A stretch of DNA of 37,143 nt from Myxococcaceae bacterium (lineage in GTDB: Bacteria; Myxococcota; Myxococcia; Myxococcales; Myxococcaceae): positions 1-37,143 of the forward strand of contig JADGHL010000040.1 in NCBI GenBank assembly GCA_019686135.1, written 5' to 3'. Every line of letters begins with the position of its first letter. Within the stretch, counting starts at the first letter, position 1. The notes under the pieces were generated by a model. It did not search any database and was not told the DNA's origin. It saw only the letters and a program-made list of their open reading frames with translations. Below are positions 8,688 to 27,424 of the stretch, piece by piece. A program made the translations under genes and the position numbers.

Positions 8688-8912
8688 ATGGGAATCGACT
8701 ACGGACGGGTGGAGTACGGCCGTTGCCCCTGCACCGGCCGGTACGAGAACCGCTTCGTGGAGGTCCGGTTGACGGTGAACGGGCGCGTGGTGGTCCTGAC
8801 CTCGGTCCCCCAGGGGGCGTGCCCGACCTGTGGCAGCCGGGTCTACAAGGCCGAGGTGCTCAACCGGATCGAGTCCCTGATGAAGAACGAGCGCTTCTCC
8901 AAGCGGACCTGA
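8688..8912 (+). CDS. Small zinc-ribbon protein (YgiT-like Cys motif)
   Basis: A 74-residue protein with CPC near residue 13-15 and CPTCG at 45-49, followed by a basic helix (KAEVLNRIESLMKNERF). The spacing resembles the YgiT/MqsA-type zinc finger, where a CxxC pair, a beta hairpin and a CPxCG knuckle hold one zinc. There is no toxin partner or HTH domain beside it, so an antitoxin role is not supported. The ATG at 8688 lies only 25 bases from the preferred start of the divergent upstream gene. Function unknown; a nucleic-acid-binding or structural role is possible. Confidence 0.65.
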   Translation: MGIDYGRVEYGRCPCTGRYENRFVEVRLTVNGRVVVLTSVPQGACPTCGSRVYKAEVLNRIESLMKNERFSKRT

Positions 8913-8949
8913 CGGACAGGCCGGCGCGTGTGTCCTTTGGAGCGGAGCG

Positions 8950-9738
8950 CTACTTCTTCGCCGCCGACGAGACGATCGCGAAGCTGCCGCCCTGGGGATC
9001 GACGCACTGGGCGACGCGGTCGCCGCCGGGAACATCCATCGGGCCGTTGACGATCTTGCCGCCCTTCTGCGGAATCCGCTTCACGGTCTCGTCCACGTTC
9101 GTCACGCGGATGTAGTGCAGCCAGTGCGGCGGCGCCTTCAGCATCTTCGCCGTGTTGGACATCCCGCCGAAGGACTTCTCCGGGCTGGTGCCGAACATGT
9201 AGTACTCGCCGTATTCCGGGCCCATGTCCATCGATTGGGTGGGCTTCCAGCCGAACAGGTTTGAATAGAACTTCCACGCCGCCTTCCAGTCCGTGGTGTT
9301 CAGCTCGGCCCAGGAGAAGTTGCCCACGTCGTTCGGGTTCTGCACCCCGTCGGGCCCCGCGCCAGGCTTCGGCGAGAAGATGGCGAAGACCGCGCCCTGC
9401 GGATCGGCGAGCACCGCGAAGCGACCGACGTCCGGGATGTCGCGCGGTTCGGCAAGGACCTTCCCGCCCAGGGACTTTGCCCGTTGGGCGGTGGCATCGA
9501 CGTTCCTGACGCCCACGTAGCCCAGCCACATCGGCGGCGAGCCCGCCTTCCGCGCCGCTTCGTCATGCGCCATCAGGCCTGCGTAGGACTTGTCGCCGAT
9601 CGACAGCATCCAGTAGTCACCACCCGGCCACTTCGTCGCCTTCCATCCGATGATGTCGCCGTAGAAGGCCTTCGCCCCCTCGACGTCGTGGGTCATCAGG
9701 TCGTACCAGACGAAGCCGCGGATCGAATCGTTTGCCAT
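8950..9738 (-). CDS. VOC (glyoxalase/bleomycin-resistance fold) protein with two domains
   Basis: The 262-residue protein contains two consecutive VOC units. The first covers about residues 5-120 (FVWYDLMTHDVEGAKAFY ... GRFAVLADPQGAVFAIF) and the second about 135-258 (FSWAELNTTDWKAAWKFY ... DRVAQCVDPQGGSFAIV). Each shows the FYxxxxGW helix and the DPQG.xFA strand of the fold. Members include hydroxylases' accessory proteins, glyoxalases and dioxygenases; the metal ligands here are not the classic glyoxalase set, so the reaction is unknown. The start is ATG at 9738; the open frame continues upstream but only as a shadow of the AIF-like gene. The gap to the upstream gene on the same strand is 56 bases. 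Confidence 0.85.
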   Translation of the reverse strand: MANDSIRGFVWYDLMTHDVEGAKAFYGDIIGWKATKWPGGDYWMLSIGDKSYAGLMAHDEAARKAGSPPMWLGYVGVRNVDATAQRAKSLGGKVLAEPRDIPDVGRFAVLADPQGAVFAIFSPKPGAGPDGVQNPNDVGNFSWAELNTTDWKAAWKFYSNLFGWKPTQSMDMGPEYGEYYMFGTSPEKSFGGMSNTAKMLKAPPHWLHYIRVTNVDETVKRIPQKGGKIVNGPMDVPGGDRVAQCVDPQGGSFAIVSSAAKK

Positions 9739-9794
9739 GGCGGCCCTCGTACCGGGCGCCGCCGGCCCCGGCAACCGTCCGCGCAACCGCCTGT

Positions 9795-11351
9795 CTACAA
9801 GGCCACACCGCGCAGGACCTGCTCCACCGCCGCGTCGTCGCCGCGCTCGAGCGCGTCTTCCAGCAGCAGGTGATCGCGATCGCGGTAGATCGACGCCACC
9901 GCCAGCACCTTGCCGCCGCGGCGGTAGGCGACGACGCAGTTGCGGTCCCGGATGCTCCCGTAGACCTGCGCCTCGTCCCACCGGTCCGCGAACCCGGCGT
10001 AGTTGATGGGTACGTCGTAGTGCTGGCTCCAGAAGAACGGGGCCGCGTTGAAGCGCTGGCGCCGGCCGAGGATGTTCCGCGCGGCGAGCGCCCCCAGCTC
10101 CTCGGCCACGGCCCAGTGTTCGATCCGCGCGGCCGCGCCGCTGCGCACCTCCGGGAAGCGGGCCACGTCCCCCGCCGCGTAGATGCCGGGCATCGAGGTC
10201 TGCAGGTAGCCATCGACGACGATGCCGCGATCGACCTTCAGCCCCGCCGCTTCGGCGAGCGCGGTGTCCGGCCGGACGCCGACGCCCGCGACCACCAGGT
10301 CCGCCTGCAGCGTGGTGCCGTTCTCCAGCGTGACCGTCCGCGCGTCGATCGCCTTCACGCCGGTACCGAGGTGGAAGCGGACGCCCTTCTCTTCGTGGAG
10401 CCCGCGGATGAACGTTCCCAGCTCGCGGCCCAGGACCCGCTCCAGCGGTACCGCCTCCAGCCCAACCAGGTCCACCTCGACGTTGCGCGCCCGAAGCGAC
10501 GCGGCGACCTCCAGGCCGATGAACGAGGCGCCGATCACCACCGCCCGCTTCGCCTGCTTCGCTGCCTCGATGATGGCCCGGCTGTCGGCGAGCGTGCGCA
10601 GGACGTGCACGTGCGGCAGATCCGCGCCGGGAACGGTCAGTCGCACCGGCTGCGCGCCGGTGGTCAGCAGCAGCGCGCCGTACGGGACCTTCGACCCATT
10701 GGAGAGCTCGACCTGCTGCTCCTTCACCCGGATGGCGGTGGCGCGCACGCCGCGGCGGAAGTCGATCCGCTGTTCGCGGAAGAAGTCCTCGCTGCGCAGC
10801 GGGATCCACTCCTCGGGCGCGTGGCCGGCGAGGTAGTCCTTGGAGAGGTTGGGACGATCCACCGGGACCGAGTCCTCCGCGCCCACCAGGGTGACCGGCC
10901 CGTCGTAGCCTTCGCGGCGCAACGTCTCCGCCGCGCACAGCCCAGCCGGACCGGCGCCGACGATGACGACGCTGGACGGCGGCGCCGCGATCGGTTCGCG
11001 CGCGGGCTTCACCTCCTTCTTGCCCTCCACGCGCACCCGCGTTCCGTCACGCCGGAGGTTCCAGCAGGACAGCGGCCCGAGCGGCGGCGCGCGCACGGGT
11101 TCTCCCGTCCTCACGTCGAAGCGCCCGTGGTGCCACGGGCAGCGCACCTCGTAGCCGACGAGGATGCCGTCCCCGAGCGGTCCGCCGTAGTGCGTGCAGG
11201 AAGCGCCCACGCCGAAGAACTCCGAGCCCACACGCGCCACCAGCACGGCCTCGCCGTTCGCGTGCCCGACGCGCATCCCGCCCTCGGGGAGGTCGGAGAC
11301 ATCCGTCCACTGAGTCCAGTCCGGCCCGGTCAGTGCCGAGGTTCCACCCAT
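9795..11351 (-). CDS. Rieske-FAD pyridine nucleotide-disulfide oxidoreductase (AIF-like)
   Basis: A 518-residue fusion. Residues 15-110 are a Rieske domain with the [2Fe-2S] ligands C52-x-H54 and C71-x2-H74 (SCTHYGG ... CPWHHGRFD). Residues 127-430 form a FAD/NAD(P)H reductase with dinucleotide loops VVIVGAGPAGLCAAETL and AVVIGASFIGLEVAASL, and the FAD-binding IYAAGDVARF. The last 90 residues are the reductase C-terminal dimerisation/interaction domain. This layout matches AIFL and rhodocoxin-reductase-like proteins that pass electrons from NAD(P)H; the partner is unknown. ATG at 11351 has AGGGAG seven bases upstream, which decides the start against an upstream in-frame codon. It is divergent from the NYN gene across a 125-bp region with an inverted repeat. 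Confidence 0.9.
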   Translation of the reverse strand: MGGTSALTGPDWTQWTDVSDLPEGGMRVGHANGEAVLVARVGSEFFGVGASCTHYGGPLGDGILVGYEVRCPWHHGRFDVRTGEPVRAPPLGPLSCWNLRRDGTRVRVEGKKEVKPAREPIAAPPSSVVIVGAGPAGLCAAETLRREGYDGPVTLVGAEDSVPVDRPNLSKDYLAGHAPEEWIPLRSEDFFREQRIDFRRGVRATAIRVKEQQVELSNGSKVPYGALLLTTGAQPVRLTVPGADLPHVHVLRTLADSRAIIEAAKQAKRAVVIGASFIGLEVAASLRARNVEVDLVGLEAVPLERVLGRELGTFIRGLHEEKGVRFHLGTGVKAIDARTVTLENGTTLQADLVVAGVGVRPDTALAEAAGLKVDRGIVVDGYLQTSMPGIYAAGDVARFPEVRSGAAARIEHWAVAEELGALAARNILGRRQRFNAAPFFWSQHYDVPINYAGFADRWDEAQVYGSIRDRNCVVAYRRGGKVLAVASIYRDRDHLLLEDALERGDDAAVEQVLRGVAL

Positions 11352-11476: not shown

Positions 11477-12349
11477 GTGAACACCGTCCCATCCGAGCAC
11501 CGCATCGCGCTGTTCCTCGACTTCGAGAACCTCGTCACCAACACCGGCATCAGCGCGGGCAGCTTTGACTTGCAGCCGTCGCTCGATCAGCTCCTCGAGA
11601 AGGGCAAGGTCGTCTTCCGCCGCGCGTACTGCGACTGGTCACGCTTCCGGGAGGCGAAGGCGGGTCTTCACGCCCACGGCGTGGAGCTGGTCGACGTCCC
11701 GCCGTCCACGGCCGCGGGCAAGAACGCCGCGGACATGCGCCTGGTGATCGACGCGCTCGAGCTGTCGTACCTGCGCGAGCACATCGACACCTTCGTCATC
11801 GGTTCGGGCGACAGCGACTTCTGCCCGCTCGTCTACAAGCTGCGCGAGAACGGCCGCACGGTGATCGGCCTGGGCGTGCGCGGGTCCACGTCCCCGCTCT
11901 TCGTCCGCGCCTGCGACGAGTTCATCTACCTCAAGGGCGCCCGCGCGACCGAACCGGCCGAGGCCAGACGGCGCAGCGAAGGCGGCCGGCCGCGCGGCGG
12001 CGACAAGAAGAAGGGCGCCCAGGAGATCCCCGCGTTCGTCCGCGAGGGCGTCACGAGCCTGCTCGCCCAGGCCGACGAGCCGCTCAACCCGTCGCGGATC
12101 AAGGAGACGCTCGTCCGGAAGAAGCCCGACTTCGACGTGCGCGAGCTGGGCTTCTCCACCTTCTCCCGGCTGCTGGCGGCGCTGGAGAAGGAGGGCCTGC
12201 TGAAGCTGATCCAGAAGGGGCGGCAGACGTACGTGGTGCCGGCCGAGCCGATCTCCGGCAAGTCGCCCGGCGCGGACGTGGACGGGGACGAGGACGAGCT
12301 CGTCGAAGAGGAGATCATCGCCGACCCGGATGACGGCGGCCTGGTCTGA
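11477..12349 (+). CDS. NYN-domain (LabA/DUF88) protein with C-terminal OST-HTH/LOTUS domain
   Basis: A 290-residue protein. Residues 8-155 are a PIN-like NYN domain with the acidic residues expected of the metal-dependent nuclease site: D15 (FLDFENL), D86 (NAADMRLVID), D112 and D114 (GSGDSDF). A basic linker (RPRGGDKKKGAQ) leads to an OST-HTH/LOTUS-type winged helix at about 187-255 (VREGVTSLLAQADEPLNPSRIKETL ... LGFSTFSRLLAALEKEG ... TYVVP), followed by a highly acidic tail. NYN-LOTUS proteins are predicted RNA-processing factors; the LOTUS domain is reported to bind RNA, including G-quadruplexes. The start is GTG at 11477, placed just before conserved HRIALFLDFEN. RNA substrate unknown. Confidence 0.88.
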   Translation: MNTVPSEHRIALFLDFENLVTNTGISAGSFDLQPSLDQLLEKGKVVFRRAYCDWSRFREAKAGLHAHGVELVDVPPSTAAGKNAADMRLVIDALELSYLREHIDTFVIGSGDSDFCPLVYKLRENGRTVIGLGVRGSTSPLFVRACDEFIYLKGARATEPAEARRRSEGGRPRGGDKKKGAQEIPAFVREGVTSLLAQADEPLNPSRIKETLVRKKPDFDVRELGFSTFSRLLAALEKEGLLKLIQKGRQTYVVPAEPISGKSPGADVDGDEDELVEEEIIADPDDGGLV

Positions 12350-12396: not shown

Positions 12397-12938
12397 ATGG
12401 CCGATCTGCTCGAGCACCACGGTCTCATCGGCGACGCGACCTCGGTCGCCCTCGTCTCCCGAGCGGATCGATCGACTGGATCTGCCTGCCAAACATCGAC
12501 TCCGATGCGTGCTTCGCGAAGCTTTTGGGGACCAACGAGCACGGCTACTGGAGCCTGCGGCCCGCGGCGGAGATCCTCGGCGTCCGGCAGCGCTACCGCC
12601 CGGACACGCTGGTGCTGGAGAAAGAGCTGACGTGCCCCGGCGGGCCGCGCGGATCATCGACTTCATGCCGCCGGGCGCCGTCGAACACGACGTCATCCGC
12701 ATCGTCGAAGGGCCCGAGGGCGAGGTCCCCATACACGGCGACCTCAAGGAGCGCTTCGCCTACGGACGGCTGGCGCCGTGAATCCGCCTCGAGGGTCAGC
12801 AGGCCACTCTCACCTCCGCGCCGGACGCGCTGTCCGTCACCAGCCCCGTGGCGCTTCGACCCGACTGGGACCTGGTGCGCCTCGAGTCAACCTTCGTGGT
12901 CCGCGCCCGGCGAGCGGCTGCCGTTCGTCCTCGCGTGA
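12397..12938 (+). pseudogene. Broken GH15 (glucoamylase/trehalase-like) gene, N-terminal domain only
   Basis: Reading across frames reconstructs the typical N-terminal domain of GH15 trehalase/glucoamylase-like proteins. It starts MADLLEHHGLIGDATSVALV (12397), changes frame by one lost base near 12465 to GSIDWICLPNIDSDACFAKL and RQRYRPDTLVLEKEL, changes frame again near 12635 to ARIIDFMPPGAVEHDVIRIV and FAYGRLAP, then meets a TGA at 12779 where the family has Trp (P-W-V-R), consistent with a TGG to TGA mutation. The domain goes on with ALRPDWDLVRLESTFVVRA and, after another shift, GERLPFVLA before a stop at 12936. The catalytic (alpha/alpha)6 barrel is completely absent. Three frameshifts, one nonsense change and a large deletion make this a clear pseudogene. 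Such enzymes hydrolyse trehalose or alpha-glucans to glucose. Confidence 0.85.
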
Positions 12939-13150
12939 TGCGGCAGCTCGTCCTCAACAACCAGGTGGTGGTGGGGACCGTGAACGCCGGCCGGAGCGCC
13001 TTCCCCAACGCGCTGGAGCAGGCGATGGCGCTGTTCCCGGACAGCGTGCGACGGCTCATCACCGGGCGGAGCAGCCTCGAGGAGGCGCCCGCGCTCATTC
13101 AGAAGCGCGGCGGCATCAAGGAGGTGATGCGGCTGAGCACCTGGCCGTGA
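12938..13150 (+). pseudogene. 3' fragment of a glucose 1-dehydrogenase gene
   Basis: About 70 codons read LVLNNQVVVGTVNAGRSAF, ALEQAMALFPDSVRRLITGR, SSLEEAPAL and GGIKEVMRL. This is the C-terminal end of zinc-dependent, MDR-type glucose 1-dehydrogenases, where the LVLNN..VVGTVNA strand and the ITGR/HPLE segment are conserved. The N-terminal catalytic domain and Rossmann fold are missing. The fragment begins exactly where the GH15 remnant ends (stop at 12936-12938 overlapping the ATG at 12938-12940), so a single deletion seems to have joined two formerly adjacent genes. An independent peptide is formally possible but unlikely to be functional. It ends three bases from the convergent hydrolase gene. 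Confidence 0.78.
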
Positions 13151-13153
13151 GCG

Positions 13154-13795
13154 TCACGCCTGAAGGGTCCGCACGGCCGCGCGCGCCGGTGCGCCGTCGC
13201 CCCGTTCGACGCGGAGGGGAAGGCACACGAGCTCGTAGCGCCCCGGTTCGACGTGGCCCAGGTACAGGCCTTCGATGATCCACACGCCCGCGGAGAGCAG
13301 GGCGCGGTGCACCTTCGGCCCATCGGCGTCGCCGGCGAATCCGCCCACCGAGAGGTAGTCGACCCCGACGGCCCGCGGACGCCGTTCGGCCAGCCACAGC
13401 GCGGCCGCCACGGTGAGGTGGACGAAGTCCTCGCGGAACGGACGTTCGTACCAGCGGACCTCCGAGTTGCGCGTCCGCAAAAGGAGCCGCTCGCCCGGCT
13501 CGAGCCCCACCGCCGCGAGGTCGTCCGGGGTGACGGCCTTCGGCGAATCGATGCGGACCACGCGGGCGGGGCCGCAGGTGGCATCCAGCGGCATCTGGTC
13601 CAGGCTCTCGCCGCCTTCGACGAAGTGGGTCGGCGCATCGACGTGCGTGCCGCTGTGGCTGCCGAGCGTGAGCCGTCGCAGCTCGGCGGGATCGCCCTTC
13701 TCGAGCGAGGCCGTCTGCTCCACGCACACCGGGGGATCGCCCGGCCAGTGGATCATCCCGTCGCGGACGGGAACCGAGATGTCGATCCAGCGCAC
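13154..13795 (-). CDS. Cyclase/kynurenine formamidase-like metal-dependent hydrolase
   Basis: A 213-residue protein of the cyclase family (PF04199). It shows an N-terminal IDISVPVRDGMIHWPGDPP and the metal motif GSHSGTHVDAPTHF at 45-58 (H47, H51, D53, H57), followed by TRNSEVRWYERPFREDFVHL and VGVDYLSVGGF. KynB members hydrolyse N-formylkynurenine, but other members act on other amide or cyclic substrates, and no kynurenine pathway gene is nearby, so the substrate is left open. The GTG at 13795 sits right before the conserved region. An in-frame ATG at 13966 has a better ribosome binding site (AAGGAG) but would add 57 Arg/Pro-rich residues unlike the family. The product is probably soluble and dimeric. 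Confidence 0.8.
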   Translation of the reverse strand: MRWIDISVPVRDGMIHWPGDPPVCVEQTASLEKGDPAELRRLTLGSHSGTHVDAPTHFVEGGESLDQMPLDATCGPARVVRIDSPKAVTPDDLAAVGLEPGERLLLRTRNSEVRWYERPFREDFVHLTVAAALWLAERRPRAVGVDYLSVGGFAGDADGPKVHRALLSAGVWIIEGLYLGHVEPGRYELVCLPLRVERGDGAPARAAVRTLQA

Positions 13796-14182: not shown

Positions 14183-15553
14183 ATGATCCACGAGAACATC
14201 CTCTCCGCGATTGGTCACACCCCGCTGGTCAGACTCAACAAGCTGGTCGGCCCGAACGACGCGACCGTGCTGGTGAAGTGCGAGTTCATGAATCCGGGTG
14301 GCGCCATCAAGGACCGGATGGCGCTGCACATCCTCAACAAGGCGGAGCGCGAGGGGAAGCTGAAGCCCGGCGGGACGATCGTCGAGAACACCTCGGGCAA
14401 CACCGGGATGGGCGTGGCGCTGTGGGCCGCGGTGAAGGGCTACAAGTGTGTCTTCACCATGCCGGACAAGATGAGCATGGAGAAGATCAACCGGCTCAAG
14501 GCGCTGGGCGCGCAGGTGGTGGTCACGCCGACCAACGTCCCCGCCGACTCGCCGCAGAGCTACTACGAGACCGCCAGGCGCATCGCGCGCGAGACGCCGG
14601 GCGCGTTCTACCTGAACCAGTACCACAACCCCGACAACATCGAGGCGCACTACCTGTCGACCGGCCCGGAGATCTGGGCGGACACCGACGGGAGGTTCGA
14701 CATCTTCGTCGCCGGGCTGGGCACCGGCGGGACGATGAGCGGCGCCGGCAGGTTCTTCAAGGAGAAGAACAAGAACATCCGCAACATCGGCGTGGATCCG
14801 ATCGGCTCCGTCTACGAGGGCTACTTCAAGACCGGGAAGATCGGCGAGCCGCACGTCTACAAGGTCGAAGGCATCGGCGAGGACATGCTGTGCGGGGCGA
14901 TGGACTTCAGCGTGCTCGACGACATCCGGCAGGTCGACGATCGCCAGTCGTTCATCGCCGCGCGCCGGCTGGCGCGTGAGGAGGGCATCTTCGCCGGTGG
15001 CTCCTCCGGTTCTGCGGTGCACGTGGCGGTGGAGGTGGCGAAGGAGGTCGGCAAGGGCAAGACCATCGTCACCGTGCTGCCCGACTCCGGGAACAGCTAC
15101 ATCTCCAAGTTCTACTCGGATGAGTGGATGCGGGATAACGGCTTCCTCCTCGAGGAGAAGGGCCCGGGCACGGTGCGCGACGTGATGAACGCGCGGCCCC
15201 ACGACGTCATCTCCGCGAAGAAGGGCGACCGGATCGGTACGGTGGTGGAGACGCTCCGCGAGCACCAGATCAGCCAGATGCCAGTGCTGGACGGGACTAC
15301 CGGCAGGGCGGTGGGCATGGTCGCGGAGATCGATCTGCTCAACGCGATGGTGTCCGGCGGCCACAAGCTGACCGATCCGATCGACCCCATCGTCGCGCCG
15401 ATGCAGGGCGTGGTCTCGCCGGGCGCGTCGATCCAGCGGCTCCGGGAGATCTTCGCCCAGGGCAACGTCGCGGTGGTGAAGGACGGAGACCGGGTGATCG
15501 GCATCGTCAGCCAGATGGACCTGATCGAATACCTGGCGCAGCGCGCGGAGTGA
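14183..15553 (+). CDS. cbs: Cystathionine beta-synthase with C-terminal CBS-domain pair
   Basis: A 456-residue PLP enzyme of fold type II that condenses serine and homocysteine to cystathionine. Visible are the PLP lysine K43 in NPGGAIKDRM, the phosphate-binding TSGNTGMG at 70-77, the GTGGTMSG loop near 185, and GGSSGSA near 273. Residues about 330-456 hold two CBS (Bateman) domains (VRDVMNARPHDVISAKKGD ... PIVAPMQGVVSPGASIQRL). This is the architecture of eukaryotic-like CBS and not the shorter CysK/CysM. The start ATG has GAGG eight bases upstream. A cystathionine gamma-lyase/synthase homologue at 29795-30937 could complete reverse transsulfuration, although the genes are 14 kb apart. Regulation of the Bateman pair by a ligand is not visible in the sequence. 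Confidence 0.92.
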   Translation: MIHENILSAIGHTPLVRLNKLVGPNDATVLVKCEFMNPGGAIKDRMALHILNKAEREGKLKPGGTIVENTSGNTGMGVALWAAVKGYKCVFTMPDKMSMEKINRLKALGAQVVVTPTNVPADSPQSYYETARRIARETPGAFYLNQYHNPDNIEAHYLSTGPEIWADTDGRFDIFVAGLGTGGTMSGAGRFFKEKNKNIRNIGVDPIGSVYEGYFKTGKIGEPHVYKVEGIGEDMLCGAMDFSVLDDIRQVDDRQSFIAARRLAREEGIFAGGSSGSAVHVAVEVAKEVGKGKTIVTVLPDSGNSYISKFYSDEWMRDNGFLLEEKGPGTVRDVMNARPHDVISAKKGDRIGTVVETLREHQISQMPVLDGTTGRAVGMVAEIDLLNAMVSGGHKLTDPIDPIVAPMQGVVSPGASIQRLREIFAQGNVAVVKDGDRVIGIVSQMDLIEYLAQRAE

Positions 15554-18185: not shown

Positions 18186-19763
18186 TCAGCCCACGGACGG
18201 GGGCGTGCTCGGGGCGGTGGCCCCCGGCTGGGCGGTGACGATCGCCCCCACGGCGTAGACCGCGAAGGAGAGGATGAAGCCGGTGAACCACGCGTACGGG
18301 TAGATCGCGTCGAAGACGTTCGGCGGGCCGTCGAACGCGCCCGCGCTCTTGAGGAACCCCGGGACGTTGGGCAGAACGCCCACCACCAGCGCCACCATCG
18401 CCACCCGGTTGAAGCGCCTGTAGCGCCCGTCCAGCCGGTACAGATCCGCCACGTCCAGCTCGCGCCGGCGGATGACCCAGTAGTCGGCGATCATGATCCC
18501 GGCGATCGGCCCCAGGAGTGCGGAGTAGCCGATCAGCCAGTTGAAGATGTACGCGCTCGCGGACGAGAGCAGCTTCCACGGCATGATCAGGATCCCCACG
18601 ATCCCGGTGATGAGACCGCCGGTCTTGAAGGAGATCGCCCTCGGCGCGAGGTTGGCGAAGTCGTTGGCGGGGCTCACGACGTTCGCAGCGATGTTCACCG
18701 ACACGGTCGCAAGGCCGATCCCCACCAGCGCCAGCACCGCCACCAGAAGGCGCAGCCCGGCGGAGGCAAGCAGCGGCTCGGCCATCCCCGGCGGCGGCGT
18801 GGACGAGGTCAGCTGAGAGAGCACGTACTCGGGCTTCCACAGCTCCTCGAGCGGAGCGCCGCGGAGGATCGCGCTGGTCGCGCTGGTGATGATCACCCCC
18901 ATCGCGCTGAAGGCGATCATCGTGGTGGGCAGCCCCAGCGTCTGCCCCAGCATCTGCTCCTTCTGCCCGCGCCCGAACCGGGTGAAGTCCGGGATGTTCA
19001 GGGACAGCGTGGCCCAGAAGCCGATCATCCCGGTCAAGGACGGGATGAACACCTTCCAGAACGCGCCCACGGTGGCGAACTTGGAAGGCTGATCCAGCAT
19101 CGGCCCGACGCCGCCGGCGCGCGACACCGCCCACCCCAGCAGCACTGCCGCCATCACCAGCACGAGCGGCGCAGCCCAGTTCTCGAACACGCGCACCGCG
19201 TTCATGCCGCGGAAGATGATGAAGATCTGCAGGCCCCAGAAGAGGAGGAAGGTGATACCGCTCGGCAGCGACAAGCCGAGGAGCGAAAAGCCCCCGCCCA
19301 GCGTCCCGAAGCCCGGCCAGAGCGCGATGATGAACTGCTTCACCGCCTCGCCGCCGATGAAGGTCTGAATCCCGAACCAGCCGCACGCGACGATCGCCCG
19401 CAGCACCGCCGGGACGTTCGCGCCCACGGTGCCGAACGACGCGCGCGCGAGCACCGGGAACGGGATGCCGTACTTCGTGCCCGGGTGCGCGTTCAACAGA
19501 ATCGGCACCAGCACGATGATGTTGCCGAGGCCGATGGTGAAGAGCGCCTGCCACCAGTTCATCCCCACCGCGACCAGCCCGCCGGCCAGCATGTACGTCG
19601 GGATGCAGTGGGCCATGGAGATCCACAGCGCCGCGAAGTTGTAGGTCGTCCAGTTCCGCCGCGCCGCCGGCACCGGCGCGAGGTCGCCGTTGAACAGCGG
19701 CGACTGCACGATGTCCGGCGGGAGCGCGGCGAGCGCCTCCTCTGCCAACTTCGGGTCGTGCAT
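18186..19763 (-). CDS. NCS1-family nucleobase/hydantoin:cation symporter
   Basis: A 525-residue membrane protein with about twelve hydrophobic segments, typical of NCS1 permeases (Mhp1, PucI, FurE relatives). Family features are NWTTYNFAALWISMAHCIPT in TM1, GTKYGIPFPVLARASFG before TM3, the ACGWFGIQTFIGG motif of TM3, a conserved SLNIPDFTRFGRGQ in TM7 and the VVSPANDFANLAPRAI loop near the ion site. These proteins import uracil, allantoin, hydantoins or cytosine with Na+ or H+. The position immediately after preA (48 bases) strongly suggests uptake of uracil, thymine, dihydropyrimidine or hydantoin for the pathway encoded alongside. Substrate inferred from neighbours. Confidence 0.88.
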   Translation of the reverse strand: MHDPKLAEEALAALPPDIVQSPLFNGDLAPVPAARRNWTTYNFAALWISMAHCIPTYMLAGGLVAVGMNWWQALFTIGLGNIIVLVPILLNAHPGTKYGIPFPVLARASFGTVGANVPAVLRAIVACGWFGIQTFIGGEAVKQFIIALWPGFGTLGGGFSLLGLSLPSGITFLLFWGLQIFIIFRGMNAVRVFENWAAPLVLVMAAVLLGWAVSRAGGVGPMLDQPSKFATVGAFWKVFIPSLTGMIGFWATLSLNIPDFTRFGRGQKEQMLGQTLGLPTTMIAFSAMGVIITSATSAILRGAPLEELWKPEYVLSQLTSSTPPPGMAEPLLASAGLRLLVAVLALVGIGLATVSVNIAANVVSPANDFANLAPRAISFKTGGLITGIVGILIMPWKLLSSASAYIFNWLIGYSALLGPIAGIMIADYWVIRRRELDVADLYRLDGRYRRFNRVAMVALVVGVLPNVPGFLKSAGAFDGPPNVFDAIYPYAWFTGFILSFAVYAVGAIVTAQPGATAPSTPPSVG

Positions 19764-19811
19764 GGAACGGCCCTCCTCGTCCAGGGATGACGCGCGCGAA
19801 CCCCGCGGCCG

Positions 19812-21215
19812 CTACGCCTGCTTCGGAGCCTTCTTCGCTCGTACCGCCGCCGTAACGTCCAGCCCGCCCGGCACGAAGTCGGTCCCCTTCGTCACACGGT
19901 CGTTCCAGGTCTCGCCCGGCGGCCGGTCGGATGGGACCTGCTTCATGGAGATGGTCCCCGGCACCGGGCAGACCAGCGCGCAGAGGTTGCAGCCGATGCA
20001 CTCGTCGTCGTCGACGAACGGCACGCGCGCGCCGGGCGTCCCGGCCTTCGCGGTCACCACCCGGTCGGGTATCTCGCGCGGGAGGTGCGTGTGACCGGCC
20101 CTCCGGGCCTCCTCTTCGGACCGGCCGGGGAGGTGGATGCACTGGTGCCCGCCGTCCATGCACGCGACGTAGCAGAGCTGGCACCCGATGCAGGTCCGCT
20201 CGTCGATGTCCGCGACGACCCGGTACGAGAGATCGAGCTCGCCCCACTCCTTGTACTGGGGCACCGCGCGACCACGCAGCTCGGAGACGGACCGCATCCC
20301 CTTCTCGTCGAGGTAGTCGTTCAGCCCCTCGATCATGTCCTCCACGATCCGGTAGCCGTAGTGCATCACCGCGGTGCACACCTGGACGCTGGTGGCGCCC
20401 AGCGCGATGAACTCCGCCGCGTCGCGCCAATTGGAGATGCCGCCGATCCCCGAGAGCGTCAGCTTCGAACACTCCGGGTGCCGCGCGAGCTGGGAGAGCA
20501 GGTGCAGCGCGATGGGCTTGACCGCCGGGCCGCAGTAGCCGCCGTTGGTGGAGGCGTTGCCCACCTTCGGCAGCGGCACGAAGGTGTCGAGGTCCACGCC
20601 GACGATTGACTTCACCGTGTTGATCAACGACGCCGCCGGCGCGCCCGAGCGGACCACCGCCTCGCCGGGCTCGGTGATGTCGCCGACGTTCGGGGTGAGC
20701 TTGACGATGACCGGCGTCTTCGCGAACTCCACCGCCCAGGAGGCGATCTCCTGTAGGACCCTCGGCTCGTTGCCGACCGCGCTGCCCATCCCGCGTTCGC
20801 ACATCCCGTGCGGGCAGCCGAAGTTGAGCTCGAGCAGATCCGCGCCCGCGTCCTCGACCTTGTGGATGATCTCCCGCCACTCCTCCTTCGTCTCCACCAT
20901 CAGCGAGGCGATGACGGTGTGCTTCGGGTAGCGCTTCTTCACCAGCCGCATCTCGCGGAGGTTCACCTCCAGCGGGCGGTCGGTGATGAGCTCGATGTTG
21001 TTGAGCCCCATCAGGCGGGTGTTCCCGTAGTCCACGCCACCGAAGCGGGAGGACACATTGACGATGGGGTTCCCGAGCGTCTTCCACACCGCGCCGCCCC
21101 AGCCCGCGTCGAAGGCGCGCATGATCTGGTCGCCGGTGTTGGTGGGCGGCGCAGAAGCCAGCCAGAAGGGGTTCGGGCTGCGGACGCCGCAGAAGTCGAT
21201 GGACAGATCAGCCAT
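19812..21215 (-). CDS. preA: NAD-dependent dihydropyrimidine dehydrogenase subunit PreA
   Basis: A 467-residue flavoprotein subunit that reduces uracil and thymine to 5,6-dihydro forms together with PreT. Residues 1-320 form the FMN-binding TIM barrel, with LELNFGCPHGMCERGMG at 128-144 containing the general-acid Cys equivalent to C671 of the mammalian enzyme (C134) and its neighbouring His (H136). VKLTPNVGDI, NASTNGGYCGPAVKPIAL and SGIGGISNWRDAAEF follow. The C-terminal part has two [4Fe-4S] motifs, CIGCQLCYVAC and CIGCNLCALVCP. ATG at 21215 has GGGAG nine bases upstream; a longer start at 21251 is less likely. E. coli PreA is slightly shorter. The gene is 68 bases after preT and 48 before the transporter. 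Confidence 0.95.
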   Translation of the reverse strand: MADLSIDFCGVRSPNPFWLASAPPTNTGDQIMRAFDAGWGGAVWKTLGNPIVNVSSRFGGVDYGNTRLMGLNNIELITDRPLEVNLREMRLVKKRYPKHTVIASLMVETKEEWREIIHKVEDAGADLLELNFGCPHGMCERGMGSAVGNEPRVLQEIASWAVEFAKTPVIVKLTPNVGDITEPGEAVVRSGAPAASLINTVKSIVGVDLDTFVPLPKVGNASTNGGYCGPAVKPIALHLLSQLARHPECSKLTLSGIGGISNWRDAAEFIALGATSVQVCTAVMHYGYRIVEDMIEGLNDYLDEKGMRSVSELRGRAVPQYKEWGELDLSYRVVADIDERTCIGCQLCYVACMDGGHQCIHLPGRSEEEARRAGHTHLPREIPDRVVTAKAGTPGARVPFVDDDECIGCNLCALVCPVPGTISMKQVPSDRPPGETWNDRVTKGTDFVPGGLDVTAAVRAKKAPKQA

Positions 21216-21283
21216 CCAGAGTGCTCCCGGAAGAAGTGACCAACCACTCACCAGCCACTACGAACCGCCGCGTCGAGCGGCCG

Positions 21284-22636
21284 CTAAGGCCGTCCGCTCA
21301 ACGCAGCGACGATGTCGCGCACCGCGGTCCGCGCCTCCGCCGCCGCGTTGACGACTTCCTTGCCGCCGTTGACGCAGTCCCCGCCGGACCAGACCTTCGG
21401 GTTGCCGGTACGGTGCGTCTTCGGGTCGACGACCACCCGCCCCTTCGCGTCCAGCTGCACGCCGGGGAACGCCAGCGCCACCTGCGTCGCGCGGTTCTGG
21501 CCGATCGCCACCGCCACCAGGTCCGCGGAGATCACCTCGTCGGTCCCGGGCAGCGGGCGCCCGCCCTCGGTGCGCTGCACGCGCACGCCCGTCACCTTCC
21601 CCGCCTCGTCGCGGAGCACTGCCACCGGCTGCCGGTTCTCGATCAGCCGGACGCCGTCCTTGCGCGCGCCGTCGAGCTCGTGGCGATAGCCGGACATCTC
21701 CGCCTCGCTGCGGCGGTAGACCATGTCCACCTCCACGCCGAGCAGCGACAACTCGTGCGCGATGTCCAGCGCCGTGTTCCCACCGCCCACCACCACCGCC
21801 CGCTTCACGCCGCCCAGCGCGAACCCCGGCTGCGCCTTGATGCGCTCGATCAGATCGACCGCACCCCACACGCCGGGGCCGTCCTCCCCTTCGATGCCGA
21901 TCTTCGAGTCCGCGCCCAGGCCCAGCCCGAGGAACACCGCGTCGTACTGGGAGATCAGCTCCTCGGCGGAGATCTGCCGGGGCCCGCTGGCGCGGCCGCC
22001 CACCACCTCGACCCCCGTGCGCAGCTCGATGTCGCCGAGCGAGAGGATCCACTCCAGCTCGCGGATCGCGTCCGGGCCTTTCATCTTGTACGGCGCGATG
22101 CCCAGGGTGTTGAGCCCGCCGGGGAGCTCCTTGCGTTCGAAGATGACACAGGTGTGCCCCTCCAGCGCCAAAAGGCCCGCCGCGGCGATCGACGCCGGCC
22201 CGCTGCCCACCAGCGCGATCTTCTTCCCCGTGCGCGGATTCGGCTGGAACAGCCGGGGCGCCTTCTCCAGCGTCGTCTCCACCGCGAAGCGCTGCAACCG
22301 GCCGATCTGGATCGGCTCGCGGCCCCAGAGGTTGTAGACGCACGCGCCCGCGCAGAGCACCTCCACCGGACACGCCTGCGCGCAGGAGGCGCCGAGGATG
22401 TTGGCGGAGAGGATGGTCCGCGCCGCACCCTTCGTGTTCCCGGTGGCGATCTTGTGGATGAAGGTCGGGATGTCGATGCCGGTCGGGCACGCCGCGATGC
22501 ACGGCGCGTCCGAGCAGTAGAGACAGCGGTTCGCCTCCGCCACCGCCTCGGCGGCGTCATAGCGGGGCTTCTTGTCGTCGAACTTCTCCTCGAGGCGTCC
22601 CGGAGGCAGCGCCGGCCGCGGCTGCATCACGCGCAT
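21284..22636 (-). CDS. preT: NAD-dependent dihydropyrimidine dehydrogenase subunit PreT
   Basis: A 450-residue protein like the glutamate synthase small subunit. The N-terminal Fe-S region has CLYCSDAPCIAACPTGIDIP and CAQACPVEVLCAGAC; then comes a FAD loop (IALVGSGPASIAAAGLLA), an NAD(P) loop (AVVVGGGNTALDIAHEL) and the FAD-closing GDCVNGGKEVVNAAAEA. PreT takes electrons from NADH and passes them through FAD and iron-sulfur clusters to PreA. The start codon overlaps the stop of the aminotransferase gene (TGATG), so the two are translationally coupled. The cysteine pattern matches family members and nothing is missing. Confidence 0.94.
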   Translation of the reverse strand: MRVMQPRPALPPGRLEEKFDDKKPRYDAAEAVAEANRCLYCSDAPCIAACPTGIDIPTFIHKIATGNTKGAARTILSANILGASCAQACPVEVLCAGACVYNLWGREPIQIGRLQRFAVETTLEKAPRLFQPNPRTGKKIALVGSGPASIAAAGLLALEGHTCVIFERKELPGGLNTLGIAPYKMKGPDAIRELEWILSLGDIELRTGVEVVGGRASGPRQISAEELISQYDAVFLGLGLGADSKIGIEGEDGPGVWGAVDLIERIKAQPGFALGGVKRAVVVGGGNTALDIAHELSLLGVEVDMVYRRSEAEMSGYRHELDGARKDGVRLIENRQPVAVLRDEAGKVTGVRVQRTEGGRPLPGTDEVISADLVAVAIGQNRATQVALAFPGVQLDAKGRVVVDPKTHRTGNPKVWSGGDCVNGGKEVVNAAAEARTAVRDIVAALSGRP

Positions 22637-23934
22637 CAGTTCGCCCCCATCGCCGCGAAGGATTCGTCGAGGATCTTCAGCGACTCCTCCACCTCCGACG
22701 CCGTAACGTTCAGCGGCGGGGCGATCCGCACCGTGTTCCCGTACAGGCCGCCCTTGCCGATGAGCAGGTTGCGCTTCTTCGTCTCCTCGAACAGGCGCAA
22801 CGTGGCCTTCGGGTTCGGGGTGCGGTCCTTGATCGTCTCGTCGACGACCAGCTCGATCGCCTGCATCAGGCCCATGCCGCGGACATCACCGATCGTCTTC
22901 GGGTACTTCTTCTGGATCCGCTCCAGGCCCACGCGGAGCTCCTCGCCGCGGCGCGCGGCGTTCTCCACCAGCCGGTGCTCTTCGATCTCGTCCAGCACCG
23001 CGCTCGCGGCGGCGCAGCTGACCGGGTTGCCGCCGAAGGTGGAGATCGTCGAAGCCTTGAAGGCATCCGCCACGAACGGCGTGGCCAGCGTGGCCGCCAG
23101 CGGCAGGCCGTTGGCGATGCCCTTGGCCATGGTCATGATGTCCGGCTCCACGCCGGACATCTGCGCGCCCCACATCTTCCCGGTGCGGCCGAAGCCGGTC
23201 TGCACCTCGTCGATGATCATCAGCCCGCCGTACCGGCGGACGATCTCCGCGGCGATTTCCAGGTACTCCTTCGGCGGCACGATGAAGCCGCCCACGCCCT
23301 GGATCGGCTCGGCGAGCATCCCGGCGATGCGCCCGGTGGTGGTGGTCCGGATGAGCTCCTCGATGTCCCGCGCGCACTGCACGCCGCAGCTGCTCGGCTC
23401 GAGCTTGAGCGGACAGCGATAGCAGTACGGCGACATCGCGTGCTTGATGCCCGCCACCTGCGTGGGGACCGACCGGTAGTTCGAGTGCGCAGTGAGCGAC
23501 TGCGCCAGCATCGACCGGCCGGAGTAACCGTGGCGGAGCGCGATCACCTCCAGGTTCCCGGTGGCGACCTGCGCCAGGTTGACCGCGGTCTCGTCTGCCT
23601 CGGTGCCGGACGCGGTGAAGAACACCTTCTTGAGGTTGCCGGGCGCGAGCTTGATCAACTTCTCCGCCAGCTCGACCATCGGCACCGTCGGGTACAGCGT
23701 AGAGACGTGCGAGAGGCGCTGAACCTGCTGGATGATCGCGTTGTTGACGCGCTCGTTCGCGTGCCCGACCGAGACGGTGAGAATGCCGCCAAAGAAGTCC
23801 AGGTAGGTGTTGCCGTCGAGGTCCTTGATCCGCGCGCCCTTCCCCTCGTGAAGGACCACCGGCTCCTGGTAGTAGTTCGCTACCGCCGGGAGCATGTACT
23901 CCTTGTGCTTCGCGCGAATCGTCTTCGAGTCCAT
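22636..23934 (-). CDS. Class III PLP aminotransferase, probably acting on beta-alanine/beta-aminoisobutyrate
   Basis: A 432-residue fold-type I transaminase with the PLP lysine K271 in TMAKGIANGLPLAA, the aspartate D242 of IIDEVQTGFGRTG, TASGTEADETAV at 107-118, and a C-terminal RIAPPLNV. It is most like the AGXT2/omega-amino acid transaminase branch. A cysteine-rich insertion, CYRCPLKLEPSSCGVQC (171-187), resembles that in alanine-glyoxylate/beta-aminoisobutyrate aminotransferases. With preTA directly downstream, it is expected to turn beta-alanine or 3-aminoisobutyrate into malonate or methylmalonate semialdehyde, using pyruvate or 2-oxoglutarate. ATG at 23934 has AAGGAG six bases upstream, deciding the start over an in-frame codon at 24015. 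First gene of its operon. Confidence 0.88.
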   Translation of the reverse strand: MDSKTIRAKHKEYMLPAVANYYQEPVVLHEGKGARIKDLDGNTYLDFFGGILTVSVGHANERVNNAIIQQVQRLSHVSTLYPTVPMVELAEKLIKLAPGNLKKVFFTASGTEADETAVNLAQVATGNLEVIALRHGYSGRSMLAQSLTAHSNYRSVPTQVAGIKHAMSPYCYRCPLKLEPSSCGVQCARDIEELIRTTTTGRIAGMLAEPIQGVGGFIVPPKEYLEIAAEIVRRYGGLMIIDEVQTGFGRTGKMWGAQMSGVEPDIMTMAKGIANGLPLAATLATPFVADAFKASTISTFGGNPVSCAAASAVLDEIEEHRLVENAARRGEELRVGLERIQKKYPKTIGDVRGMGLMQAIELVVDETIKDRTPNPKATLRLFEETKKRNLLIGKGGLYGNTVRIAPPLNVTASEVEESLKILDESFAAMGAN

Positions 23935-23985
23935 CGACGCTCCTTGCCGTGCGGGGGACGCCGCTCTGTCAGTGTGGAAGAGTCG

Positions 23986-24015
23986 TACATAGTCCCGTTC
24001 GCGAAGCGGGGTCAA
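23986..24015 (-). promoter_or_regulatory. Promoter with palindromic spacer before the aminotransferase-preTA operon
   Basis: On the minus strand TTGACC (24015-24010), an 18-bp spacer and TATGTA (23991-23986) form a sigma-70-like promoter 52 bases before the ATG. The spacer carries a near-palindrome, CCCGCTTCGCGAACGGG (24010-23994), with an 8-bp TTCGCGAA core and one unpaired base. An operator in this position would block polymerase directly. The -35 resembles consensus well, the -10 only partly. Confidence 0.4.
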
Positions 24016-24075
24016 AACGGCCCCCCGTCACGGCCACGAATGACCGCGTTCGAACGCTCCGCCCTTTGGAGGGGT

Positions 24076-24840
24076 TCAGGGCGCGCAGCTGATGTTCGGG
24101 ATGTTCGTGGCGATGAACGGCGTGACGCAGAACGCTCCGGCTTCCGAGGCCTGCGGAAGGGTGCAGCACTCGGTGTAGCTATTGAGCGGGTTCCCGCTGG
24201 CGTAAGGCGCGCAATCGGCGCGTGCGTGGCACCGCACGATCTGCGCCTGGGTGTCGCAGGAGAGCGGGATGTTGGGCGTACAGGTCGCGCTGCACGAGGC
24301 GATGGCGCTTTCAGGCGGGCAGTTGGGCAGCGTCCCCGGCCCGGTGGTCAGCGTGCCACAGCAGACCGGCGTCCCGCCGTCGCAGTCCTCCGGGCCGTCG
24401 CAGGCGAAGACCACGCCCGCGTCGCCGCAGCTCGGCGCGCACGTGAAGGTCGCCGTGCTCCCGTTGAAGTCGCCGCAGCACACGTCGCCGTTGAGGCACA
24501 CGTCGGTGCCGCACGGGATGCCCTCGAAGCCGGCGTCCGCCGGGCCCGCATCGATGGCGCCCCCATCGACACCCGCGTCCGCTTCTCCCCCATCCATGAA
24601 GACGCCGCCGTCCTCACCCGCGTCCATGCCGGCGTCGCTGCCAGCGTCCATCCCGGCGTCGACCCCCGCGTCGATGCCCGCATCCGTGCCGGCATCCATC
24701 CCTGCGTCACCGCCTCCACCACCGCCCGCGTCGACGCCCGCATCCGGAGGGACCGGCGCCGGGCCGCTGCACGCCCCCACGCCCACAGCAGTCACGGCAC
24801 ACAGACTGAACACCAGCGCACGCAATGACGAGCCGTTCAT
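24076..24840 (-). CDS. Lipoprotein with Asp-Ala-Gly repeat linker and Cys-rich domain
   Basis: A 254-residue protein with signal peptide MNGSSLRALVFSLCAVTAVG and lipobox VGAC, so C24 is probably lipidated. Residues 33-104 are a low-complexity linker of D-A-G-x units, a hallmark of surface lipoproteins in Myxococcota. The rest (105-254) is Cys-rich (CGTDVCLNGDVCCGDF, CAPSCGDAG, CCGTL, CPPES...CSATC, CDTQAQIVRC, CCTLPQ), suggesting several disulfides. ATG at 24840 has GGAGGG upstream, which fixes the start. No known catalytic motif. It sits between the HHE-PilZ gene and the aminotransferase operon with its own 360-bp upstream gap, so it is probably transcribed separately and lies in the pyrimidine block by chance. 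Confidence 0.8.
   Translation of the reverse strand: MNGSSLRALVFSLCAVTAVGVGACSGPAPVPPDAGVDAGGGGGGDAGMDAGTDAGIDAGVDAGMDAGSDAGMDAGEDGGVFMDGGEADAGVDGGAIDAGPADAGFEGIPCGTDVCLNGDVCCGDFNGSTATFTCAPSCGDAGVVFACDGPEDCDGGTPVCCGTLTTGPGTLPNCPPESAIASCSATCTPNIPLSCDTQAQIVRCHARADCAPYASGNPLNSYTECCTLPQASEAGAFCVTPFIATNIPNISCAP
24529..24744 (-). repeat. Coding minisatellite, Asp-Ala-Gly-x units
   Basis: Imperfect 12-base units (gatgccggcatg-like on the coding strand) translate to DAGM, DAGT, DAGI, DAGV, DAGS and similar. They form the flexible linker of the lipoprotein. The tract is prone to unit-number change. Confidence 0.75.
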
Positions 24841-25202
24841 CCGATTCCCTCCCGAAAAAGTGGGCAGAGCATCCCCTCTCCGGTTGCGCCGCGGCAAGTC
24901 AACGAACGCACGGGGCGCGAAGCGTGACGGCGCCTGACCACGAATCGCTGCGCGGTCGCGGAGGACGGCAACGGCCTTCGGCCGACGAGCATCCAGACAG
25001 CGGCGGCCCCGGACCTGCGACGGCCACGCTTCATCCGCGCCCAATTGGTGGGTGGATCCGCCAGTGCTTTGAATCACACGATCACGCGCCCGGTGCCGAG
25101 CCGGATGACGGAGCACACTTCAGCGCCCGCCTGAGCACGTGGAGTGCTGTGCGCGCTGACCACGTCAAGGAACGGATCAACCCGCGCGCAAATCGCAGCA
25201 GG
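24841..25202. other. 362-bp intergenic region
   Basis: No gene with a plausible start, ribosome binding site or family motif is seen on either strand. It is expected to contain the promoter of the lipoprotein gene at its left end and the 3' end of the HHE-PilZ transcript at its right end. No terminator hairpin with a T-run was found. Confidence 0.5.
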
Positions 25203-25952
25203 TCAGGTCGCAGCGGCCCGCCGGCGGCGCAACGATTCGGTGGCGACCCAGCTGGCGATGGCGAGGCCCGCCTGGGGCGGGAGGTTGACGAACCGTGCCC
25301 CCACGCCGCGCTTACCCGTGGCTCCCTCGCGGCCGAGCCACCGGACCTCGGCGCAGACGTCGATCGGCCCGGGGGCACCGGGGAGCAGGAGCCGTGCGTC
25401 GATGAACGAGCCGACCGGCAGCGGTCGATCCAGCTCCATCCGCATCCCGCTCAGGGAGAGATCGCGCAGCGTGGCGACCGGCTCGCCGTCGCCCTTGATC
25501 ACCGCCGGGCAGTCGCAGCTCACGCGCGGCATCTGACGGCGCTCGGCGCCGGCGCCCTCGGCGTAGCGGTCGAGCAGCGCGAACTCCTCGGCGAGGAGCG
25601 CCTCCACCAGGTCGCGCGCGGTCATCCACTGCTGCAGCGTGGCCGGACTTCCGGCGCCGGCCTCGAGCGGCGCGAGCGACTGACGCACGGACCGCTCGAA
25701 CGACTCCAGCTCGCGGGCGAAGGCGCGGACGCGGTCGGCGCGCTCCGGCTGCCCACGCACCGCGTCCAGGCGGGCCAGCTCCGGGAGCACCGTGCGTTCG
25801 AAGGCGATGTGCCCCAGCAGCACCGCCGACAACTTCCGCGCCGCGATGGCCACCTCAGCGGGGCGGCCGGCATGGACAGCCGCCGCCACCGAGAAGAGCA
25901 GCCGCTGGATCTGGAAGTGCTCGGAGCGGAGCTGCTCGATGAGGAGTTTCAC
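25203..25952 (-). CDS. Degenerate hemerythrin-like (HHE) helical domain fused to PilZ
   Basis: A 249-residue two-domain protein. Residues 1-130 are a four-helix bundle like the hemerythrin/HHE family (LRSEHFQIQRLLF with H12; LLGHIAFERTVLPEL with H48 and E52). The second half lacks the expected His ligands; the place of a late H-HxxEE is taken by EALLAEEFALLDRY. Residues 137-240 form a PilZ domain with both parts of the c-di-GMP motif: RxxxR (R139-R143) and DxSxxG (D164, S166, G169), plus WLG and GVGARFVNL. The gene begins 15 bases after the dihydropyrimidinase gene on the same strand, so it is likely co-transcribed. The PilZ call is strong; iron binding is doubtful. Confidence 0.82.
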   Translation of the reverse strand: MKLLIEQLRSEHFQIQRLLFSVAAAVHAGRPAEVAIAARKLSAVLLGHIAFERTVLPELARLDAVRGQPERADRVRAFARELESFERSVRQSLAPLEAGAGSPATLQQWMTARDLVEALLAEEFALLDRYAEGAGAERRQMPRVSCDCPAVIKGDGEPVATLRDLSLSGMRMELDRPLPVGSFIDARLLLPGAPGPIDVCAEVRWLGREGATGKRGVGARFVNLPPQAGLAIASWVATESLRRRRAAAT

Positions 25953-25967
25953 GGTGCCATCCTTCCA

Positions 25968-27350
25968 TCAGCTGCGCGGCGAGCGGCGCAGGTACTTCCC
26001 TGCCCCGGCCCTGCCGGTGAACTTCCCCCCTTCGACGATGATATTGCCGCGCGAGATGACGATCTCGGTCATCCCCTTGGTGGTGCGGCCCTCGTAGGGA
26101 TTGTAGTCGGCGCGGCTGTGGTGGGTCGCCGCGCTCCAGTGGGTCGACTGGTTCGGATCGAACACCACCAGGTCCGCGTCCGAGCCCGGGGCGATGGTCC
26201 CCTTGCGCGGGAACATGCCGAAGATCTTCGCCGGCGCGGTGGAAGCGATCTCCACCCAGCGGTTGAGCGAGATGTTCCCGGGGACGACACCGCCGTCGAA
26301 CAAAAGGCTCATCCGCGTCTCCACGCCGGGCGCGCCGTTGGGGATCTTCGAGAAGTCGTCCTTGCCCAGCTGCTTGTCGGTCTTCATGCAGAACGGGCAG
26401 TGATCCGTGGAGACGACCTGCAGGTCGTTGTTGCGCAGGCCGCGCCACAGATCCTTCTGCGTGTGCTTCGCGCGCAACGGCGGTGACATCACGTACTTCG
26501 CTCCGCCGAAGCCCGGCTCTTCGTAGTTCTCGTAGGAGAGGAAGAGGTACTGCGGGCAGGTCTCCGCGTGGACCGGCAGCCCGCGGTCGCGGGCCTCGGC
26601 GACTTTCTCCAGCGCCTCGGCGGCGGAGAGGTGGACGATGTACACCGGCACATCGGCGATCTCCGCCATGCAGATGGCCCGGTAGGTGGCCTCCGCCTCG
26701 GCGCGGGCCGGACGGGTGAGCGCGTGCCACTTCGGCGCCTTGTGTCCTTTGGCGATCGCCTGTTGGGTGAGGACGTCGATGACGCCGCCGTTCTCCGCGT
26801 GCATGGAGATGGTGGCGCCGATTTCGCCGGAGCGCTGCATCGCGCGGAAGATCGACGCGTCGTCGAGCATGAACACGCCCGGATAGGCCATGAACAGCTT
26901 GAAGGAGGTGACGCCCTCCTTGACCATGTCGCCCATCTCGCGGCCGAGCGAGTCGTTGTACTCGCGCATGATCATGTGGAAGCCGTAGTCGATGGTGGCC
27001 TTGCCCTCGGCCTTGCCCATCCAGGTCTCCCACGCCTTGCGCAACGACGATCCGCGCTCCTGGATCGCGAAGTCCACGATGGTGGTGGTGCCGCCGAACG
27101 CCGCCGCCTTCGTGCCGGTCTCGAAGTCGTCCACCGAGTAGGTGCCGCCGAACGGCATGTCCATGTGCGTGTGCACGTCGATGCCGCCGGGGATGACGTA
27201 CTTCCCCTTCGCGTCGATCGTCCGATCCGCCTTCACCTGAAGGTCGGTGCCGATCATGGAGATCCGCTCGTTCTCCACGAAGATGTCGCCCACATACGTG
27301 TCGACCGCCGTGACAATCGTGCCGTCCTTGATGAGCAGAGTCCGGTTCAC
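25968..27350 (-). CDS. Dihydropyrimidinase (hydantoinase family)
   Basis: A 460-residue amidohydrolase that opens dihydrouracil/dihydrothymine to N-carbamoyl-beta-amino acids. The binuclear zinc site is complete: HTH at 60-62, the carboxylated lysine K151 in TSFKLFMAYPG, H184 in ISMHAENG, H240 in VYIVHLSAAEA, and D316 in STDHCPF. The hydrophobic and substrate loops (GGTYSVDDFETGTKAAAFGG, MSPPLRAK) also fit dihydropyrimidinase rather than allantoinase or dihydroorotase. It is between the ureidopropionase gene (74 bases upstream) and the PilZ gene (15 bases downstream). D-hydantoinase activity is the main overlapping alternative. Confidence 0.93.
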   Translation of the reverse strand: MNRTLLIKDGTIVTAVDTYVGDIFVENERISMIGTDLQVKADRTIDAKGKYVIPGGIDVHTHMDMPFGGTYSVDDFETGTKAAAFGGTTTIVDFAIQERGSSLRKAWETWMGKAEGKATIDYGFHMIMREYNDSLGREMGDMVKEGVTSFKLFMAYPGVFMLDDASIFRAMQRSGEIGATISMHAENGGVIDVLTQQAIAKGHKAPKWHALTRPARAEAEATYRAICMAEIADVPVYIVHLSAAEALEKVAEARDRGLPVHAETCPQYLFLSYENYEEPGFGGAKYVMSPPLRAKHTQKDLWRGLRNNDLQVVSTDHCPFCMKTDKQLGKDDFSKIPNGAPGVETRMSLLFDGGVVPGNISLNRWVEIASTAPAKIFGMFPRKGTIAPGSDADLVVFDPNQSTHWSAATHHSRADYNPYEGRTTKGMTEIVISRGNIIVEGGKFTGRAGAGKYLRRSPRS

Positions 27351-27385
27351 CAGACCAACCTCCAGAAAAGGGTCCTACAAACGCC

Positions 27386-27415
27386 GAACGACGAACCACC
27401 AACGAGAACGACGAA
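27386..27415. repeat. Pair of 10-bp direct repeats between ureidopropionase and dihydropyrimidinase genes
   Basis: GAACGACGAA occurs at 27386-27395 and again at 27406-27415, a 20-bp period close to two helical turns, in the 74-bp gap upstream of the dihydropyrimidinase gene. Such spacing places both copies on the same DNA face and would suit a regulator dimer. Chance cannot be excluded. Confidence 0.35.
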
Positions 27416-27424
27416 TGCGGCTGC

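Follow-up and report, generated by a model that had tools for sequence, protein, structure and literature searches.

GH15 trehalases occur in bacteria and archaea (PMC10969515). GH15 genes lie adjacent to genes for glucose 1-dehydrogenase (gdh) in many genomes, in some of them together with a gene for a PF04199 hydrolase ('cyclase'); our literature search returned no paper on this gdh/cyclase/GH15 cluster. Within a 37,143-nucleotide stretch of Myxococcaceae DNA, referred to here as the window, a preliminary description had recognised a GH15 gene fused by deletion to the tail of a gdh gene, and had proposed that the two were once paired. The adjacency of these genes elsewhere supports the former pairing. 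We find that the segment is very probably a non-functional remnant of a gdh/cyclase/GH15 cluster, of a type that is intact in related bacteria.

GH15 genes and their neighbours in related genomes

The intact GH15 proteins of relatives contain both a TREH_N domain (PF19291) and the PF00723 catalytic domain. The curated models scoring highest for them are archaeal trehalase models; the best model, TreH1, gave 392-417 bits, below its cut-off of 820, and a PDB search with the GH15 alignment (E<=1e-10) returned no match. Because the best matches are to trehalase models but fall below the cut-offs, naming stops at 'GH15, trehalase-like', which seems a reasonable statement of the farthest point that the sequence evidence reaches.

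Cluster order among the relatives is fluid (gdh-cyclase-GH15, cyclase-gdh, cyclase-GH15, or gdh and GH15 divergent). Intact gdh followed by GH15 on the same strand was found in G017, G034, G080, G105, G110, G111 and G113, and G036 has the order gdh, cyclase, GH15. All eight intact same-strand sets of the close kin, subfamily A, thus have gdh upstream of GH15, opposite to the window, in a sample of relatives that includes none from the host genus and outside which the intact ancestor of the relic locus, with its gene order, lies. In G032, an intact GH15 gene is preceded by a gdh shortened to its last ~105 codons. Subfamily B, which is more distant, shows gdh-cyclase-GH15 in G008, G028 and G007, and likewise, with a gap, in G011. 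L093 (Polyangiaceae) has gdh-cyclase-dehydratase with GH15 divergent. The order GH15 then gdh occurs at about 14 distant loci of other phyla, mostly actinobacterial, with gdh about 33-41% identical.

Subfamily A GH15 genes (L216-L223) were present in 8 of the 96 genomes of the family, yet they are 87-98% identical across three genera, and this combination of patchiness and similarity suggests that they moved horizontally in recent times. Beside gdh/GH15 in L057, L052 and L093 are genes for an IlvD/Edd-family dehydratase and a 2-hydroxyacid dehydrogenase, with an aldo/keto reductase gene in addition in L052 and L093; these neighbours look like a non-phosphorylated gluconate route.

The window holds a GH15 relic joined to a gdh tail

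The window belongs to a draft genome of 5.5 Mb (245 contigs, 97% complete), and the relic lies in the interior of its contig. Upstream, and outside the relic, is an intact nuclease-like gene encoding NYN and OST-HTH/LOTUS domains (11477-12349, + strand; Pfam NYN 8e-34, OST-HTH 2e-7), which is present in 40 of 60 relatives. The downstream flank is formed by an intact PALP and CBS gene, cystathionine beta-synthase-like by Pfam (about 14186-15553). Between them, the + strand carries two head-to-tail gene fragments, GH15 and gdh, and a promoter and terminator scan gave no signal above chance. Identity of this locus with the NYN neighbourhoods of relatives was ruled out. L058-L063 and L065 have no gdh, GH15 or cyclase near NYN. 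A subfamily B gdh or gdh/GH15 set lies within about 10 kb of NYN in G008, G017 and G032 (and, by coordinates only, in G030 and G023), upstream of NYN in G008, G017, G032 and G030. Elsewhere in the window, 18186-28297 (- strand) is likely a reductive pyrimidine catabolism cluster, with genes for a cytosine/purine-type permease, dihydropyrimidine dehydrogenase subunits, a class-III aminotransferase, and dihydropyrimidinase-like and ureidopropionase-like proteins (permease and aminotransferase assigned by Pfam, the remainder by eye). Two stretches of about 1.1 kb each (8690-9795 and 24015-25200) contain no convincing gene, and the frames tested there had no Pfam match.

The GH15 relic (12397-12936, + strand) comprises the first ~180 residues, the N-terminal quarter, with the TREH_N domain kept. 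Read in frames c, b, a and b in order, it translates as MADLLEHHGLIGDATSVALVS / GSIDWICLPNIDSDACFAKLLGTNEHGYWSLRPAAEILGVRQRYRPDTLVLEKELTCPGG / ARIIDFMPPG...YGRLAP*IRLEG...ALRPDWDLVRLESTFVV / GERLPFVLA. Its first piece (12397-12461) runs from the ATG at 12397 to the first frameshift and is 67-71% identical to amino acids 1-21 of the relatives' intact GH15. The second (12459-12645) matches TREH_N positions 32-86 (Pfam E 6e-11), with 71-78% amino acid identity to relatives, and the third (12644-12905) shows 64-69%. By DNA alignment, the fourth (12905-12936, GERLPFVLA) follows a 1-base gain and stops at the junction. Aligned with the DNA of five relatives, the relic has 1-base losses near 12460-12462 and near 12645, and the 1-base gain near 12903-12908. 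A TGA at 12779-12781, in the third piece, replaces a TGG present in all five aligned relatives; this is Trp171 of the protein alignment, which is invariant across its four intact relatives. The GH15 part therefore carries four disabling changes, three frameshifts and one nonsense, as the preliminary description had read them, and its reconstruction of the N-terminal domain across three frames is confirmed by the alignment with the five relatives and by the Pfam match to TREH_N. Residues ~180-614 are missing: the PF00723 catalytic domain was absent from the window by Pfam, and a search across the genome found no subfamily A GH15 C-terminus outside the relic. The other GH15 genes of this genome are intact paralogues, 39-55% identical.

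At 12936, GH15 homology (...GCGT) stops and gdh homology (TGATGCG...) begins, which places within 12936-12940 the direct passage already noted there. The two homologies overlap by at most 1 bp, and the join is therefore non-homologous; no convincing recombination-mediating repeats were found at the junction, only weak inverted repeats of chance-like quality. The tail (12936-13150, + strand) consists of the last ~68 codons and the stop of gdh and matches PF16912 (Glu_dehyd_C) positions 143-210 (E 4e-9), all that is left of the C-terminal-domain profile. It stays in frame up to the gdh stop codon (13148-13150) apart from a single in-frame loss of 9 nt, and it shares 56-59% amino acid identity with the gdh of relatives (tblastn 76 bits), one of which, at full length, matches archaeal glucose dehydrogenases. 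Residues 1-290 are missing. By Pfam, the tail is without the GroES-like catalytic domain and most of the NAD(P) domain, and the gdh N-terminus is absent from the genome, where the sole other gdh-like match is a distant dehydrogenase (33%).

The translated search that had been proposed recovered the remains of both genes. In tblastn against the window, the relatives' GH15 matched pieces at up to 120 bits (79%, 67% and 65% identity), far above the 26 bits that were reached at most when the region was codon-block shuffled 200 times. Chance similarity is ruled out by the real matches of 120, 76 and 207 bits (GH15, gdh and cyclase) against 26 bits for shuffled sequence.

An intact cyclase gene adjoins the relic

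A third member of the former cluster, missing from the preliminary description, is an intact PF04199 hydrolase gene (kynurenine-formamidase-like; 13154-13795, - strand; Pfam E 3e-27), which runs towards the gdh tail, the two stop codons lying 3 bp apart. The encoded protein is 51% identical to the G036 cyclase that lies between gdh and GH15, and homologues occupy the same position in G008, G028, G007 and G011. Since this is the single PF04199 cyclase gene of the genome (E<=0.001), its location within 1 kb of the relic would arise by chance in only about 4 in 10,000 cases.

Over its full length, the cyclase aligns with kynurenine formamidases of solved structure (PDB 4cz1, E 1.7e-34), and in alignment with PDB 4cz1 and 1r61 it keeps the motif HSGTHVDAPTHF, matching HxGTHxDxPxHF, which we take to be metal-binding. 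Against the KynB model TIGR03035 it scored 148.5 bits, below the curated arylformamidase cut-off of 223, and tryptophan dioxygenase is found in 90 of 96 genomes versus 34 of 96 for the cyclase, counts that do not discriminate for or against a KynB role. In a cyclase tree, the window protein sits on a long branch, without firm placement as operon or lone type. G066 (L198:3688-8010, - strand) has a row of cyclase, GH15, glucose-6-phosphate dehydrogenase and gluconokinase genes. The clustering of the cyclase with these genes and with gdh in relatives ties it to glucose oxidation. From this gene context, the cyclase is a conceivable, though rather doubtful, candidate for a lactonase acting on gluconolactone, which would have been retained for another lactone source after gdh was lost; our literature search found no report of a PF04199 lactonase. 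If the proposal is true, repeated loss of gdh beside the cyclase would provide natural knock-outs of the lactonase's partner. The surviving gene hints at an as yet unassigned enzyme of glucose oxidation and gives a concrete substrate proposal for a PF04199 hydrolase.

Decay of the locus and repeated loss of gdh

With intact copies of the two genes present in relatives, and the lost halves found at no other place in the genome, the segment is judged a real pseudogene. Intact homologues of GH15 and gdh exist in eight related genomes, and the window shows product-abolishing changes as well as the loss of most of both genes. Conservation of the short open frames among relatives would have pointed away from decay; the relatives instead carry intact genes. 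Window-specific substitutions in the GH15 part, only 27 in all, split 7/10/10 over the codon positions; the corresponding sum for four relatives is 37/14/50, which gives a second-position excess with a Fisher p of 0.011. This even spread would fit relaxed selection, the numbers being small.

Against reading the segment as a remnant it can be said that the frame of the gdh tail is intact up to its stop, that the relatives compared are all from other genera, that the codon-position comparison covers just 27 changes, and that the genome is a draft in 245 contigs. The draft state leaves room for an assembly or sequencing error, in which the genes are really intact and the contig is chimeric or indel-bearing. 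We consider this improbable, because four disabling changes and the loss of two gene parts fall within 0.75 kb while the conserved neighbours are intact, the missing parts are on none of the other contigs, and the locus is away from the contig ends. Poor assembly overall is also unlikely, since conserved genes elsewhere in the window form long open frames. As for the tail, a 100-aa frame (12848-13150) runs open through the junction with high GC3, and it could be imagined as a functional new chimera of a GH15 part and a gdh part. Such a protein would, however, be without the GH15 catalytic domain, the gdh catalytic domain and most of the cofactor domain; its middle (12905-12936) is outside the GH15 frame, and the joined GH15-gdh arrangement was found in none of the relatives searched. 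We therefore give a new chimera hardly any credence.

Loss of gdh beside a cyclase is seen elsewhere, and the parallel decay of gdh in G030, G073 and G032 supports the reading as a remnant. In genus g26, gdh lies on the same strand as the cyclase, 3' of it, and is intact in G078 (L210, taken as the reference). Compared with G078, an internal 0.8 kb of gdh is deleted in G030 (L084:7085-7335), where the gene also carries a frameshift. In G073 (L205:7688-7784) gdh is reduced to about its last 80 nt, and in G077 it is gone, with contiguous flanks. Thus gdh has been lost repeatedly while the cyclase was retained, and the window shows the same outcome as genus g26.

Origin of the join

That GH15 and gdh were 'fused by deletion' stands in part: the join and the losses are real, but a single event sits uneasily with close kin, which have gdh first or divergent. 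Illegitimate recombination probably produced the join, by one of two routes. A single deletion of about 2.2 kb, in an ancestral operon with GH15 then gdh, would make the join, which is without long homology, in one event. The order GH15 then gdh does exist at the distant loci, and a deletion within gdh is plainly visible in G030 versus G078. However, the eight intact subfamily A sets and G032 have gdh first and L093 is divergent, and a single deletion therefore needs a GH15-then-gdh ancestor, an order not seen among the close kin. In addition, the cyclase is inverted relative to gdh, so that at least one more rearrangement is still required. We rate this route at nearly an even chance. By the alternative route, the gdh-GH15 order would have been duplicated or rearranged and a deletion would have come afterwards. 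The segment would then be what is left of a gdh-(cyclase)-GH15 cluster after partial tandem duplication or inversion, the join being a duplication or rearrangement junction and the outer copies having been lost. Duplication or inversion accounts for an order that is reversed and a cyclase that is inverted, and the fluid cluster order of relatives speaks for it, but it requires more events, and searches of the genome gave neither a second copy nor an outer remnant. We see it as a serious contender that falls somewhat short of even. Overall, rearrangement or duplication plus later deletion is as open as a single deletion.

We propose that the cluster once split a glucose sugar, probably trehalose, and then oxidised the glucose to gluconolactone. 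The relic pieces would at present be drifting, yielding no working product.

Comparison with known systems

As decay of a gene cluster of known kind, the relic is unremarkable. It indicates the loss of a glucose-oxidation capacity by this genome and points to a gdh/GH15/PF04199 cluster that is loosely ordered and patchily kept within the bacterial family. Compared with GH15 trehalase-like genes (PF19291 and PF00723), the relic shares TREH_N, with 64-79% amino acid identity in its two longer pieces, but consists of the N-terminal ~180 residues only, with three frameshifts and a stop and without PF00723. The tail shares the last ~68 residues of medium-chain glucose 1-dehydrogenases (PF16912; relatives of known structure, PDB 2b5w and 2cd9), whereas the N-terminal 290 are lost. 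As in the gdh-cyclase-GH15 cluster of relatives (L057, L085, L087 and L088), the three families stand side by side in the window, but order and orientation are altered and, of the three genes, only the cyclase is still intact. Like G030 (L084) and G073 (L205), the window has a deletion-reduced gdh next to a retained cyclase; in those genomes, by contrast, gdh comes after the cyclase in the same orientation, without any GH15 fragment.
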